A stretch of DNA of 55,750 bases from contig JAHFED010000045.1 of assembly GCA_023248635.1 (NCBI GenBank), forward strand, positions 1 through 55,750, read 5' to 3'. The notes below the pieces were generated by a model, which was not told the origin of the DNA, did not search any database, and saw only the letters and a list, made by a program, of their open reading frames with translations. Positions 2,686 to 46,924 of the stretch are shown here, piece after piece (the first letter of the stretch is position 1; each line of letters starts with the position of its first letter). A program made the position numbers and the translations under genes. The stretch comes from Myxococcales bacterium (GTDB taxonomy: Bacteria > Myxococcota > UBA727 > VGSZ01).

Positions 2686-2777
2686 TTTGAGCCGTGCCAA
2701 CGGCTCAAACATCGGCACTTTGCGCCGTGCCAACGGCGCAAAGCAGGAAGCACTTTGAGCCGTGCCAACGGCTCAAA
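2686..2777. repeat. Three tandem hairpins with GCCA tetraloops
   Basis: Hairpin 2686-2709: stem TTTGAGCCGT, loop GCCA, stem ACGGCTCAAA. Hairpin 2718-2743: stem CTTTGCGCCGT, loop GCCA, matching 11-base arm. Hairpin 2754-2777: same stem as the first. All stems are perfect. The middle copy differs from its neighbours at two stem positions on both arms, so the changes are compensatory. The array sits between divergent genes (2640 minus, 2981 plus). Confidence 0.9.
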
Positions 2778-5156: not shown

Positions 5157-5188
5157 AGCGCAAGCGATCACAAGGCGCTTTCTGCTTT

Positions 5189-5206
5189 GCGCCGTTGGCA
5201 CGGCGC
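5189..5206. repeat. Intergenic hairpin with TGGC tetraloop
   Basis: Stem GCGCCGT, loop TGGC, stem ACGGCGC, a perfect 7-bp stem. It is the reverse-complement form of the GCCA-loop hairpins at 2686-2777. It lies between the convergent uspA and SCO genes. Confidence 0.8.
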
Positions 5207-5246
5207 GGCGGCATCCCTGTGGGTCCGCGCCCGCGGGCGGGCGGGC

Positions 5247-8101: not shown

Positions 8102-8697
8102 TTCGACCTCGCCGTCGACAAAGCACGCCGCGGACCAGCTTCCTCGTGGCGGCCAGAGCGCATCTCACCACCCCGCCGTGTGCCCGGCGCTGCGCCCTTG
8201 CGTCGAGGACGGCCCTCTCCCTTGACACCGCGCCTCTTGGTCTGGCCGACGAGGTGCGAGACTCGTTTCAGAGCCGAGTTGCTCACGGAGCTGGGCGAAA
8301 CCGCTCGGGGGTGTGCGCAAAGGCCCACTGGACCAGACGCAGGGCCGCCGCCGAAGCACGCTGCCGACGACGGCACCGGCCACGGAACAGCGAAGGTGCG
8401 ACCGAGCGGCCCTCGGGCGAGCGTGAAGGCCGCCGCGCAATCGTGCAAGCCGCGGCAGCCCGACGCAGACGACGTCTTCGGCGCCGCACCGGACCACCGC
8501 GTGGCAATTTGTCGCAACAAAAAAAAACCCAGCCCGATGCGGAATCGTCGTCGACAAACGCGGGAACGCTTCTGGCTTGTCCTGTCTCGCCCGCATTATG
8601 GGTTGTGGCGCAGCGGGGCTTCAGGTTACTTCCGGCGCGCCAGCGCCGGAAGCAATCAACGCTGCGGCGCCGTCAAGAGACCCTGTTGAGGTCAGCA
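8102..8697. other. Long divergent intergenic region between nirK and actA
   Basis: About 596 bp without a convincing gene on either strand. It must hold the promoters of both operons, but no clear -35/-10 pair or FNR-type box was seen. It contains a run of A near 8520, a stretch at 8284-8306 that resembles the core of the 66-bp repeat at 1-325 (GGAGCTGggCGAaACCGCTC), and the GCCA hairpin at 8629-8652. Confidence 0.5.
8629..8652. repeat. GCCA-tetraloop hairpin upstream of actA
   Basis: Stem CTTCCGGCGC, loop GCCA, stem GCGCCGGAAG: perfect 10-bp stem, ending 45 bp before the actA start. The stem sequence is unlike those at 2686-2777 but the loop is the same. Confidence 0.85.
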
Positions 8698-17047: not shown

Positions 17048-17099
17048 CAGCCGCGCCAACGGCTGGCACACCCACATTTCAGGCGCGCCAGCGACTGAA
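17048..17099. repeat. Two GCCA-tetraloop hairpins between actF and the diheme cytochrome gene
   Basis: Hairpin 17048-17065: CAGCCG(C), loop GCCA, (A)CGGCTG. Hairpin 17078-17099: TTCAGGCGC, loop GCCA, GCGACTGAA with one G/A mismatch. They occupy the 182-bp gap and argue that the frame open across it is not coding. Confidence 0.75.
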
Positions 17100-17186
17100 G
17101 CAACGCACACTGTGGCCGCGACAAAGCGCCGCACGACGACCTCGTGGGGTTGCGTCGCAGGCGACAAGAGCGCAACGAGCGAGACG

Positions 17187-22664: not shown

Positions 22665-25600
22665 ATGATTTTCTCTGGCATTTCTCGGGTCGGCCTTTGT
22701 TCCTCCACGGCTCTCGCGGTCGCCCTCTTGGCCGCTTGCCCGGCGCCTGACCTCAAGGTCCCCGGCGCCCAGTTGGCCGGCACCGTACGCATCAACGCTG
22801 GGCTCAAGCCTCTGCTTCCGCCGCCCGCAGGGGCCTCGGGTCGAAACGTCGCCGAGGTCGAGCCCAACACCGTCGCCCCCGAGAAGTTCGACGTCGGCGA
22901 AGTGCTCCCCGACGTCGAACCGCTCATCATCAGCGGTTCCCTCGCCGAAACCACCGACGTCCGCGATCGCCTGATCTTTCGCGTGGGCGGCGACGAAGAG
23001 GTCTCGGTGGCCTTCACCTACGACGTGCTCGAGGGTGGCGGCGGCAGCTTCTTTACCGTCGCCGACGGCGAGGCCATCGCCGACGACAACAGCAACGTGC
23101 TGGTGCCCTTCGAGCCCGCCAACGCCAAGACCCAGACCTTTTCAGCAGTGGTCAAGCCCAACCGTCCGTTGCTCATCAATATCAAGTTCAATGGTACGGG
23201 CGAGCTGAAATACCGGACGACGGTCACCGCGATCTCCGGGACGGTGGTGGGCAAGGTCTTCGTCGTCGCCTTCCGTGCCGGCGCCGAGCACCCCGCGCTG
23301 TTGCTCGATCCGGTCAAGAGGCCCAACAACCCCATTGGCGCCGTCTCGGTCGACAAGAACATTCGACTCGACGCCGACGGCAACTGGATCGGCGAGTTCG
23401 GCGGCCTGGCTCTCATCGACGCCGATCCGACCACGCCCGTGGCCGAGGGCGACGCCATCGTGCTCTTTGCCTACGCCGACAACGACGGCAGCGCGTCCTC
23501 GGCGCCAGCCAATTTCGTGCTCGGAGCGCCGACGCCCGCCGACTTCGTGGCCGGTGCGCTGCTCAACATCGACGCACCCAAAGACGGCGACAGCCGCAGC
23601 GACCTCGAGCTCAACATCGATCAGCCCAACATCGATCAAGACTTCGACGGTGTCGCCGATGAAGACCGCGATGGCGACGGCCGCAACGACGACAACTGCC
23701 CCACCAAGGCCAACGTCGACCAAGCAGACGTTGACGAAGACGGCGTCGGCGACATTTGCGATGTGTGTCCCGACGTCTTCGATCCCGATCAGAAAAACAG
23801 CGATGGCGCAGGCCGGGGCGACGCCTGCAACCGCATCGGGTCCTCGCGCTGCCCCTTCTTCGGCATGTACCCGCGGACCTCGTGCGCCGTCGACACCGAC
23901 GACGACGAAATCGACGACAACGCCATCGCCTGCAAAGACGTGAACCCCGTGTGCCTGCCGCAAGACGCCGCCGACGGCGACTTCCCCATCACCGGTCCGG
24001 CCACCGCGCTCGACAATTGCGTCGACGACGCAAACGTCGACCAGGCCGATCTCGACAACGACCTCGCTGGCGACGCCTGCGACGCCGACGATGACGGCGA
24101 CGGCACCGGCGACGACGTCGACAACTGTCCCGCGGCGGGCAATGGCGGACAGCAAGACGGCGACGTCGACGGCGTCGGCGATGCCTGTGACGATTGCGCG
24201 ACGCTGACCAATGACGATCAAGGCGACGTCGATGGCGATGGCGCCGGCGATGCCTGCGACGACGACATCGACGACGACCTGCTGCTCAATGCCGACGACA
24301 ATTGCCCCGCCGTCGCCAACCCCCTGCAAAATGACAGCGACGGCGACGGCGACGGCGACGCCTGCGATCTCTGCCCCGCCCGCTTCGGCGACTTCGCCGA
24401 CGCCGACAACGACGGCATTGGCGATGAGTGCGAGCCCGCAGCGTGCCTGGCCGTGCCCTCGCCCCAAGCGGCCTGTGTCGACGACACCGACTGCGTCGAC
24501 GCCGGGGGCCTCTGCCTCGAAGGGGGCCTCTGCCTCCTGCCCGGTGACAGCGATGGCGATGGCCTCCCCGACGCCTGCGAAGACGACGACGACGGCGACG
24601 GCGTGATTGACACAGCCGACAACTGCCCCGGAGTCGCCAATCCCGTCGTCGCTCCAGCTGCGGCCCAGGCCGACTCGGACGACGACGGTTTCGGCGACGC
24701 CTGCGACCTCTGCCCCGAGGCTGCCGACGCCGACCAACTCGACAGCGACGGCGACGGCCTCGGCGACGCCTGCGACCTCTGCCGCCTGGTCGCCTCCGCA
24801 CCGGTGGCCTGCACCGACGACGAGGACTGCGAGCTCGCGGGCGGCAGCTGCGGCGCCGGTGGCCTGTGCTTGACCGACACCGACACCGACAGCGATGGCA
24901 ACGGCGATGCCTGCGACGCCGACGACGACGCCGACGGCATCTGCGATCCCTGCGGAGACGCAGCGCCGCTGCCGGTGTGCAAAGGCACTGTGAGCGGCGA
25001 CGGCTGCACCGGCGCGGACAATTGCCCCGCCGACGCCAACCCCGGCCAAGAAGACGTCGACGACAGCGGCTTCGGCGATGTGTGCGAAGACAAAGACGGC
25101 GACGGCACCCCTGACAGCAGCGATGACTCCGATGGCGATCTGGTCTTCGACATCGTCGACAACTGTCCCGACCTCGCCAATCCCATTGCCGATGGTGCCA
25201 CCGCTCAGGCAGACACCGACGGCGACGGCCTCGGCGATGCCTGCGACAACTGCGCCGCGGTGACCAACATCGGCCAGGAAGACGCCGACGGCGATGGCGT
25301 CGGCGACGTCTGCGACAACTGCGCGGGTGCCGCGAACCCCGGCCAGGAAAACAGCGACACCACCGATACCTTCGACGACGGCCTCGGCGACGCCTGCGAT
25401 CTCGACGCCGACAACGACGGCCTCGCCAACGACGATGACAACTGCACCAGCGTCGCCAACCCTAGCCAAGAAGACGGCGACGACGACGGTGCCGGCGACG
25501 CCTGCGATGTGTGCAACGGTTTCAGAAACCCCAACCAGGCCGACGCCGACAACGACAGCCGTGGCGACGCTTGCGACAACTGCCCCAACGTCGCGAACAA

Positions 25601-27977
25601 CAACCAGGCCGACGGCGATGCCGATTTCGTTGGCGATGCCTGCGACAACTGCGTGGCCGTCTCCAACCGCGACCAACAAAACAACGAGGGCGATCTCCTC
25701 GGCGATGTGTGCGACGACGACGACGACAACGACCTCGACCTCGACGTCGCCGACAATTGTCCCCTCGATGCCAACGCCGCGCAGACCGACACGGACGACG
25801 ACGAGATCGGCGACGCCTGCGACGACGACATCGACGGCGACGGCCTGTGCAACGACGCCACGATCGAGAGCGACGACTGCGCGGGCGTCGACGCCTGCGC
25901 GCTGGTCGTCAGTGATTTCACTCCGCTGGCCAACAACGACCGCACCGGCACCGACCTCTCCAACGACGCCCTCAATCCGACGATCATCGACGGGACCGGC
26001 GTGGCCAACGAGATCAGCGAAAACGATCAATTGGTGATCACGGGTTCGGTCGGTGGGGCCGACGCCGCCGACGCCTTCGTCGTCACCCCGGCAGCCCTGG
26101 CCGGTCGGGGAGCGCGGGTCGAAGTCACCGGCCTCGACGACCTCACCCTCGAGGTGAACGGCAACGAAGTCACCGCCGACACCTTCTCTCTGGGTCTCAA
26201 CGGCGCCGCTCGCACCTTCGTGTTGGCCTCTGGCGATGCGGATGCCCACAACTACACCATCACCATCAGCGTGGGTGGCGACGTCGACAGCGACGGCGAC
26301 GGCGACGCCGACCTCTGCGACTCCTGCGTGGCCGACCCGAATCTTGGGGACCGCGACGACGATGGCGTCGACGACGCCTGCGACGTCTGCATCGTGGCCG
26401 CGGGCTCTTGCGACAACATCGACGTCGACAACGACACCATCTGCGACGTGGCCGACGGGCCGTCGACCTGCGGCGCCGACGGGGCCATCGACAACTGTCC
26501 CGCCGACGAAAACACCGACCAGGCCGACGTCGACGACGACGGCCTCGGCGACGCGTGCGACGACGAAGACGGCGACACGGTCAGCGACGCCGACGACAAC
26601 TGCTTCAACACCGACAACCTCGACCAGGCCGACGCCGATGGCGACGGCCTCGGCGACGTCTGTGACAATTGTCCCGACGACGACAACCTCGACCAGCAAG
26701 ACGGCGACCTCGACGGCGTCGGCGACGCCTGCGATCCCTGCCCGGTCCTCGACGGCGCGGACTGCAGCGTCATCGATCCCGACGGTGACGACGCCTGCGA
26801 TGTCGCTCCCCCTGCAGGCATCAACAACGCCTGCGGCGCGGCGCTCGACAACTGCCCCGGGCTGCAAAACGACCAAAGCGACGCCGACGACGATGGCCAA
26901 GGCGACGCGTGCAACGACGCCAACGACGTCGACGGCGACGAGTTCTCCGACACCCTCGACAATTGTCCCGCGCTCGGCGACGCCAACCCCGATCAGGCCG
27001 ACGCCGACGACGACGACATCGGCGACATCTGTGATGACGACCGCGACGGCGATGGGTCGTGCAACGACGCCGCGGCGCGCGGTGCCGACGCGCCAACCTG
27101 CACAGGCATCGACAATTGTCCCGACGACAACAACGTCGACCAAGCCGACAGCGACGACGACGGCATCGGCGACGTGTGTGACAACGACGTCGCTCCGCCG
27201 ACGCTCTTCTTCGAAAGCGCCGAGCCCAACGACGACGTCCCGCAGTCCATCGGGTTGGCTCCCAATGCCGCAGCCCGCATCATCGGCGCCCTCGACCAAG
27301 GCAGCGACGCCGACGATGTCTTCACCTTCACCGCTGCGCGGGCCGGCACCTTCGTTTTCCAGCTCGACTTCGATGGACCCGACTTCGATCTGATCGTGCT
27401 CCCTGGTGCCAGCGAGGCCGACTTCGAAGGCGCCCAAGCGGGCAACCCGGAGTTGGCCAGCGTCGTTGCCCTCGCCGGTGACGTCGTCAGCATCGACCTC
27501 AACGCCTTCGAGGGCGCTGGGGCCTATGTGCTCGAGGCTCTGTTTGTGGCCGACGTCGAAGGGGCCGATCCGCTGGCCGCCATCGATCTCGGCGGGCTGC
27601 GCCGCGGTGACTTCCTGCCGGCCCAACCCATCGTCAACGACTACGTCGGCGCCTTCGACGCCACCGAGCGCGGCGGCGGCGCCATCGAAACGGCCTTTGG
27701 GGCCACCGACACTGACGAGTACGTCTTCGAAGTGCTCTCGACGGGAACCCTGGTGTTCGCCCTCACGGGCTTCAGCGGCGACCTCGACGCCATCTTCCTG
27801 GATCGTCCGGCGGCGCAGGCCGCCTTCCCGCTCGGTGTGACCAACGTCGATGCGGCGACGGTGGCAGCCATCGAACGGGCATCCTTCGCGGTCACCGTTG
27901 GCGACGTGATCTTCCTCGAGATCGCGCGCTACGACGCCGCCCCGACCCCCTACTCCTTCTCCCTCACGATCGAATGA
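22665..27977 (+). CDS. Giant thrombospondin type 3 repeat lipoprotein with C-terminal PPC-like domains
   Basis: 1770 residues from the ATG at 22665, lipobox LLAAC. The first 300 residues are beta-rich. About 23640-25900 and 26280-27200 encode dozens of Asp-rich repeats of the type DNCP..NPxQxDxDxDGxGDxCD, the calcium-binding thrombospondin type 3 unit with disulfide Cys. Two repeat blocks are separated by a beta-rich domain (about 25915-26270). The C terminus has a PPC-like domain ([15 protein letters not shown] onward) and a second related domain. Expected role: calcium-stiffened surface stalk. Its stop overlaps the TonB receptor start (ATGA). A TTGACA at 22566 could be a -35 box, but the -10 is poor. 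Confidence 0.9.
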
Positions 27978-35951: not shown

Positions 35952-36317
35952 GCGTAGGCCCCTCGCGAACTGCCGAGGTGAGGCCTTGGCACCGCGCAGA
36001 AACGGGCAGCAGATGGCCAACGCAAGTCGCAGGGCCTCGAGCGCAGCGTCGGCGCAAGTGTGCACCACCCGCGCGGGAGGCGGGGCAGGGCTGTCGGGCT
36101 CCTGACCCGAGGCGCGGCCCCAGCACCAGCCAGCTGTGACGACGACGACGTCCGCGCTGGCCCTCGCTTTGCTGTTCATGCAGCTGCCGGAACTTCAAGA
36201 CGCGCCAGCGTCTTGAACCGTCGGAACTTCAAGACGCGTCAGCGTTTTGGACCTTCAGAACTTCAAGGCGCCGGAGCGTCTTGAACCATCAGAACTTGTC
36301 GTCGATCGGGGCAGGTC
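35952..36317. other. Intergenic region before the glycosyltransferase gene
   Basis: About 366 bp without a convincing gene. The first 235 bp show nothing recognisable; the last part carries the tandem GCCA-loop hairpins at 36188-36298. Confidence 0.6.
36188..36298. repeat. 34-bp tandem repeat, three copies plus a partial fourth, each a hairpin
   Basis: Units at 36188-36221, 36222-36255 and 36256-36289, then CAGAACTTG. Each unit carries a stem TTCAAGACGC, a four-base loop and its complement. Loop and stem of copy 1: GCCA, perfect 10 bp. Copy 2: loop GTCA with G-T wobbles. Copy 3: loop CGGA with one G-T wobble. Same architecture as the dispersed GCCA hairpins. Confidence 0.9.
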
Positions 36318-46900: not shown

Positions 46901-46924
46901 CTCACGACGTTGGCGCGTCTTGAG
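46901..46924. repeat. TGGC-loop hairpin upstream of the histidine kinase gene
   Basis: Stem CTCACGACGT, loop TGGC, stem GCGTCTTGAG, with 8 Watson-Crick pairs, one wobble and one mismatch. It resembles the repeat unit at 36188-36289 in reverse. It lies 34 bp before the chosen start of the kinase gene. Confidence 0.6.

Follow-up and report, generated by a model that had tools for sequence, protein, structure and literature searches.

Constant-loop GCCA hairpins in a Myxococcales genome: probable non-autonomous, REP-like mobile palindromes

Hairpins in the window

The window, which is the whole stretch of DNA that was analysed, is 55,750 nt long, and the coordinates of the parts listed here refer to it. 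On the forward strand, a head-to-tail array opens with a hairpin of family F3, TTTGAGCCGT-GCCA-ACGGCTCAAA, at 2686-2709 (perfect, 10 bp), and continues with an F4 hairpin, CTTTGCGCCGT-GCCA-ACGGCGCAAAG, at 2718-2743 (perfect, 11 bp), a second F3 hairpin at 2754-2777 (perfect, 10 bp) and an F1 hairpin, TCATCGCC-GCCA-GGCGATGA, at 2794-2813 (8 bp). A different hairpin on the same strand, P (AATTCACCGACA...TG(C/T)CGGTGAATT, also written AATTCACCGACA...TGTCGGTGAATT), is found at 2824-2857 and 2887-2920 and alternates there with another F1 hairpin, TTCATCGCC-GCCA-GGCGATGAA, at 2856-2877 (perfect, 9 bp), as its partner in composite units of 63 bp. At about position 27490 of contig C18 of the same genome, P is replaced by a different palindrome, TTCTTTGCCCTCA-ACC-TGAGGGCAAAGAA, ahead of the same spacer.

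Further units in the window are a decayed F4 unit on the reverse strand at 5186-5209 (7 bp perfect core at 5189-5206), a forward hairpin of the rare family F6, CTTCCGGCGC-GCCA-GCGCCGGAAG, at 8629-8652 (perfect, 10 bp), an imperfect forward F5 unit at 17077-17100 (2 mismatches), and a forward F2 hairpin, TTCAAGACGC-GCCA-GCGTCTTGAA, at 36194-36217 (perfect, 10 bp), from which two decayed F2 units (36228-36285) extend an array with a period of 34. A decayed F2 unit with 4 mismatches lies on the reverse strand at 46901-46924. The perfect hairpins (9-11 bp) are as an earlier note on this DNA had described them, and those that it placed at 2794-2813 and 5189-5206 are present with stems of only 8 and 7 bp. 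What it took for a single hairpin at 17048-17099 is a 6 bp hairpin together with the imperfect copy at 17077-17100, and its list lacked the decayed F2 units at 36228-36285 and 46901-46924 and both P hairpins.

An Rfam search of the window gave no match. A further palindromic repeat, GAGCATCCCCGA...GATCGGGGATC, is arranged in tandem at positions 1-330, and its exact core occurs 42 times in 1.9 Mb. A longer, MITE-like dispersed repeat, CATCCCGCGTCCGCTTGATGTTCGACCGCGTTCCGAG..., which hosts hairpin insertions, is found at 142-250 and elsewhere in the genome, its exact core occurring 38 times in the same 1.9 Mb. A very large predicted protein with Asp-rich repeats (DGDGxGDxCDNC-like) is encoded at 22665-27977.

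Abundance and distribution

The data are one draft genome, with an assembly that is 96.7 % complete, and the analysis is by sequence comparison only. In the 1.90 Mb that were read directly, which were chosen partly for richness in matches, 228 of the 307 perfect tetraloop hairpins with a stem of at least 9 bp have the loop GCCA/TGGC. Five first-order Markov controls, matched in length, contained 19-26 such hairpins, with GCCA in 0-1 of them. The earlier note would have given up its hairpin family if GCCA/TGGC loops were no more frequent than other tetraloops; these counts show the opposite, both against other loops and against shuffled sequence. The next most common loops in the 1.90 Mb, GCAA (13) and GCTA (7), look like mutated GCCA.

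Across the 6.53 Mb assembly, the core CCGTGCCAACGG occurs 289 times and its reversed control 0 times, and there are 371 copies of F2 and 234 of F1 at ≤1 mismatch, bringing the total to approximately 890 copies (289 + 371 + 234). Contigs C48 and C51 start inside hairpin arrays; as arrays thus seem to break the assembly, the copy number is probably underestimated.

The hairpins are species-specific, being essentially absent from the genomes of 57 relatives. No F2 or F3/F4 hairpin was found in these genomes, and the only F1-like sequence is a single orphan hairpin in one congener, G001 (GCTTCATCaCC-GCCA-GGCGATGAAGC, L130:228-253). It is without the usual spacer and is possibly an ancestral form. 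Searches of viral contigs, plasmids and phages gave no match.

Stem families

Stems that vary freely, as first proposed, were not found. There are 11 distinct 9 bp stems in all, and four of them, TTCATCGCC, TTCAAGACGC, TTTGAGCCGT and TTTGCGCCGT, cover 220 of the 228 GCCA/TGGC hairpins; the other seven, e.g. CTTCCGGCGC, CTTCAGGCGC and TTTTGGCCGT, are rare variants. Joint change of the two arms, as the earlier note described it, is true of differences between families and fails within them, where one-sided changes (138 + 78) far outnumber complementary double changes (9) and non-complementary doubles (8). In F3/F4 the fifth pair is mostly A:T (39) or C:G (37), but there are also 11 A/G hybrids. 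The stems are thus a small number of founder palindromes that were amplified and are decaying, rather than sequences that co-vary freely.

The earlier note also offered a copying mechanism that regenerates palindromes. There is no evidence for this as a continuous process, given that the changes within families are mostly one-sided, and ongoing correction of the palindromes is weak at best, with 9 complementary doubles where approximately 2 are expected by chance.

Unit structure and arrays

On the TGGC strand, a unit is made up of a spacer of 9-11 nt and then a hairpin of 22-26 nt, and a TTGAA-like site precedes it. The spacer takes the form GT...GATG(G), GTCTACAGG or GTGCTTCCTGC and is specific to the family, namely GTCTACAGG in F1, GTTTGGATG or GTTCTGATGG in F2, GTGCCGATGG in F3, GTGCTTCCTGC in F4 and roughly AGYGTTGATTG in F5/F6. 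Units occur singly or as head-to-tail arrays with a period of 33-35, or 63 where P alternates with F1. These are not CRISPR arrays, as the spacers are constant within a family and not unique.

Of 126 pairs of neighbouring units, 117 share a strand and 9 are on opposite strands, and similarity is higher inside arrays than between them (for F2, 0.885 versus 0.774). Both observations are what growth of the arrays by local tandem duplication would give.

Insertion sites

Two dispersed host repeats were found both filled and empty when copies within this one genome were compared. Insertion is precise: the insert is exactly 33 bp and nothing is lost. At C18:71202, GTTTGGATG and an F2 hairpin lie in a dispersed repeat for which 40 empty paralogs span the junction CCGCTTGAT|GTTCGACC. 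At C11:9835 and C18:55251, a unit lies inside the other repeat, with five spanning paralogs each (CAGTTGAA|GTTCGCTC), and these two filled copies may stem from one insertion. A further filled and empty case is probable at the retron (see below), where one ncRNA copy with an F2 hairpin is found beside two sister copies with no hairpin, though the alignment has diverged.

The site present at the filled loci before entry is TTGAA or TTGAT (F2). TTGAT is the insertion site of ISDra2, and F2 resembles the IS200/IS605 elements in inserting precisely beside a short fixed sequence. TTGAA is the reverse complement of the 5' foot of the hairpin, TTCAA. The left flank of F2 clusters ends in TGAA in 35 of 54 cases (background frequency of TGAA, 0.0027) and that of F1 clusters in AATT in 38 of 43. 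For F3/F4 it is looser (CAAA, TGAA, CGAA and others), so that site choice is well shown for F2 only. The right end is TTGAT in 5 cases, and in 3 of these T is also the last base of the left flank; no other properly parsed case shows such an agreement. This (p ~0.001, post hoc and worked by hand) is a hint that the target may be duplicated.

Search for a mobilizing enzyme

The Y1_Tnp profile found no match in the assembly at E 0.001, and one weak match, to a protein without HUH, at E 0.02. This protein is RAYT-like; it is encoded by a single-copy gene at C9:359453-360406 (reverse strand; L223) and matches REP_Tyr_transpos with E 1.5e-10, below the curated cut-off. It is fused to a DnaA-type helix-turn-helix. 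Compared by eye with the pattern of the family, it reads SEVR where the HUH motif should be and lacks the tyrosine at the expected place. Its gene adjoins one F1 hairpin lacking P. The protein is nevertheless conserved in congener G001 and in G003, both free of arrays, which argues against a role as the mobilizer; it is likely to be a domesticated transposase. The check that had been proposed, for a RAYT-like transposase, thus turned up no catalytically competent RAYT in the 96.7 % complete assembly, and the mobilizer is not a canonical Y1/RAYT transposase encoded there. No IS110-type transposase was found in the genome, and there are 11 tyrosine recombinases.

Relationship to known elements

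Like the GTAG and CGTC REPs (PMC3733652), the hairpins are palindromes of 20-40 bp with short loops that occur in hundreds of copies, mostly between genes, and with several families per genome, and CGTC REPs are also without a known transposase. The earlier note considered the hairpins unlike ordinary REPs on account of their stems, and this does not hold, since REP families already described also comprise sub-families whose stems carry alternative complementary bases (PMC3733652). A short palindrome in more than 100 copies, mostly extragenic, is what is expected of a REP. However, there is no unpaired GTAG or CGTC tag (the flank tables have GATG(G), ACAGG or CTGC preceding the foot), one loop is shared by families with different stems, and the period is a defined 33-35 bp with a family-specific spacer. 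REP pairs are mainly head-to-head or tail-to-tail and head-to-tail dimers are rare in the known families (PMC3733652), whereas the arrays here are almost all head-to-tail (same strand 117 versus opposite strand 9). With no tag, mostly head-to-tail arrays and a RAYT-like protein without catalytic residues, membership of the GTAG or CGTC superfamilies was rejected.

In group 3 TnpA-REP, certain loop positions tolerate no mutation (PMC8266576). The hairpins share with the group 3 TnpA-REP/RAYT system (PMC8266576) perfect palindromes with a short loop, whose bases the group 3 enzymes recognize, and a short motif 5' of the foot, although no catalytically competent Y1 transposase was found in this genome. 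The suggestion of a recognized fold has therefore fared well, a constant loop on different perfect stems fitting a recognized single-strand fold of this type. Since loop recognition of the group 3 kind would yield a constant loop with different stems, we class the hairpins as REP-like in the way they would act, and as a variant of the GTAG/CGTC superfamilies, not one of their members.

Insertion beside a short fixed site and a hairpin near the end are also features of IS200/IS605 ends (IS608, ISDra2). Here there is no tnpA and only a single hairpin, and the site is complementary to the foot of the hairpin rather than to a separate guide, as in the guide/target complementarity of IS200/IS605 (PMC8266576).

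Origin and spread of the hairpins

The explanation that we favour, and consider probable from these comparisons, is that the hairpins are non-autonomous REP-like mobile palindromes, placed by a putative hairpin-recognizing enzyme and then tandem-duplicated. The unit (a spacer of 9-11 nt, then a hairpin of 22-26 nt with a TGGC loop) enters a short pre-existing site. In F2 this is TTGAA or TTGAT, which the TTCAA foot on the 5' side of the same hairpin complements. Since TTGAA also closes the unit, an insertion is left with an entry site to its left and to its right, and arrays in head-to-tail order, with a period of 33-35, then expand by local tandem duplication. We infer that the enzyme would recognize the folded single strand (loop and foot), and that the site may be picked by base pairing of foot and target. 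A more specific version, which we hold to be unlikely, has the foot pairing with the target, the target duplicated into the outer 3' arm of the new hairpin, the constant loop as the sole fixed recognition feature, stems free to found families and a non-Y1 mobilizer.

Spread by replication alone, in which no dedicated enzyme acts, the polymerase slips and switches template at short homologies (TTGAA), and the hairpins stall it and favour strand switching, would account for the 5-9 nt that the sites share with the unit's own junction (CTTGAAGTT versus CTTGATGTT) and for the failure of the search of the assembly to give a candidate transposase, and local duplication clearly builds arrays. However, several hundred identical, bounded units at unrelated loci that are absent from congeners are hard to obtain without dispersal in trans, and such a process does not predict that one loop stays constant while the stems differ, making this origin rather improbable.

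Strong, intergenic hairpins could also be RNA or transcription elements (terminators, mRNA stabilizers or attenuators) selected at each locus, and such a role at the RNA level has been suggested for REPs of other genomes (PMC3733652). By the gene positions of a home-made gene caller, 71 of the 88 clusters in 819 kb are intergenic, though genes cover approximately 89 % of the sequence, so that the earlier claim that all the hairpins lie between genes was nearly right. There is no transcriptional orientation: in gaps between co-directional genes the GCCA strand runs with the genes in 18 cases and against them in 20, and gaps between divergent genes hold 17 of the 70 typed clusters. Among 369 units, 20 have a T-rich tail on one strand and a single one has it on the other. 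Intrinsic terminators were rejected on the rarity of T-tracts and the lack of orientation with the genes. The absence of strand bias, the use of divergent gaps and the small number of T-tracts make an element acting as DNA the better fit than one acting as RNA, and with stem mutations that are mostly uncompensated we regard selection as RNA as very unlikely.

The single reverse transcriptase in the genome, at C11:75268-76719, is that of a myxobacterial-type (type XIII) retron. Its locus, C11:74561-77142 (L060), has three msr-msd-like ncRNA copies, of which one lies upstream of the reverse transcriptase gene and the other two downstream. Their long hairpins have the apical part TCGCTGAGGCCACGACGCCGACCGCCGTGGA in common and outer stems that differ and stay complementary, and are a true case of a constant loop on variable stems; Rfam searches around the retron matched them only to sub-threshold microRNA families. 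Repeats of Nannocystis exedens, which are likewise dispersed hairpins in a genome that bears a retron of the myxobacterial type, have been proposed to be retro-inserted msDNA copies (Lampson and Rice 1997, as cited in PMC6868368), and, this genome having a type XIII reverse transcriptase, the same could be envisaged here, but it is most improbable because msd/msr sequences are confined to the retron's own three ncRNA copies (1.9 Mb), no repeated hairpin resembles the msd stem or is related in sequence to the retron, and the lone F2 hairpin at the retron has inserted upstream of a single ncRNA copy.

For mobile palindromes of the kind favoured here, a constant loop with a variable perfect stem need not mean selection as RNA, as a few founders amplified by a loop-recognizing process would give the same picture. 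For the CGTC REPs, the question has been raised of how REP-like palindromes spread when they have no transposase (PMC3733652). With approximately 890 copies, precise filled and empty sites, and entry sites that differ by family, this genome allows the rules of insertion to be read from sequence and tested on oligonucleotides.
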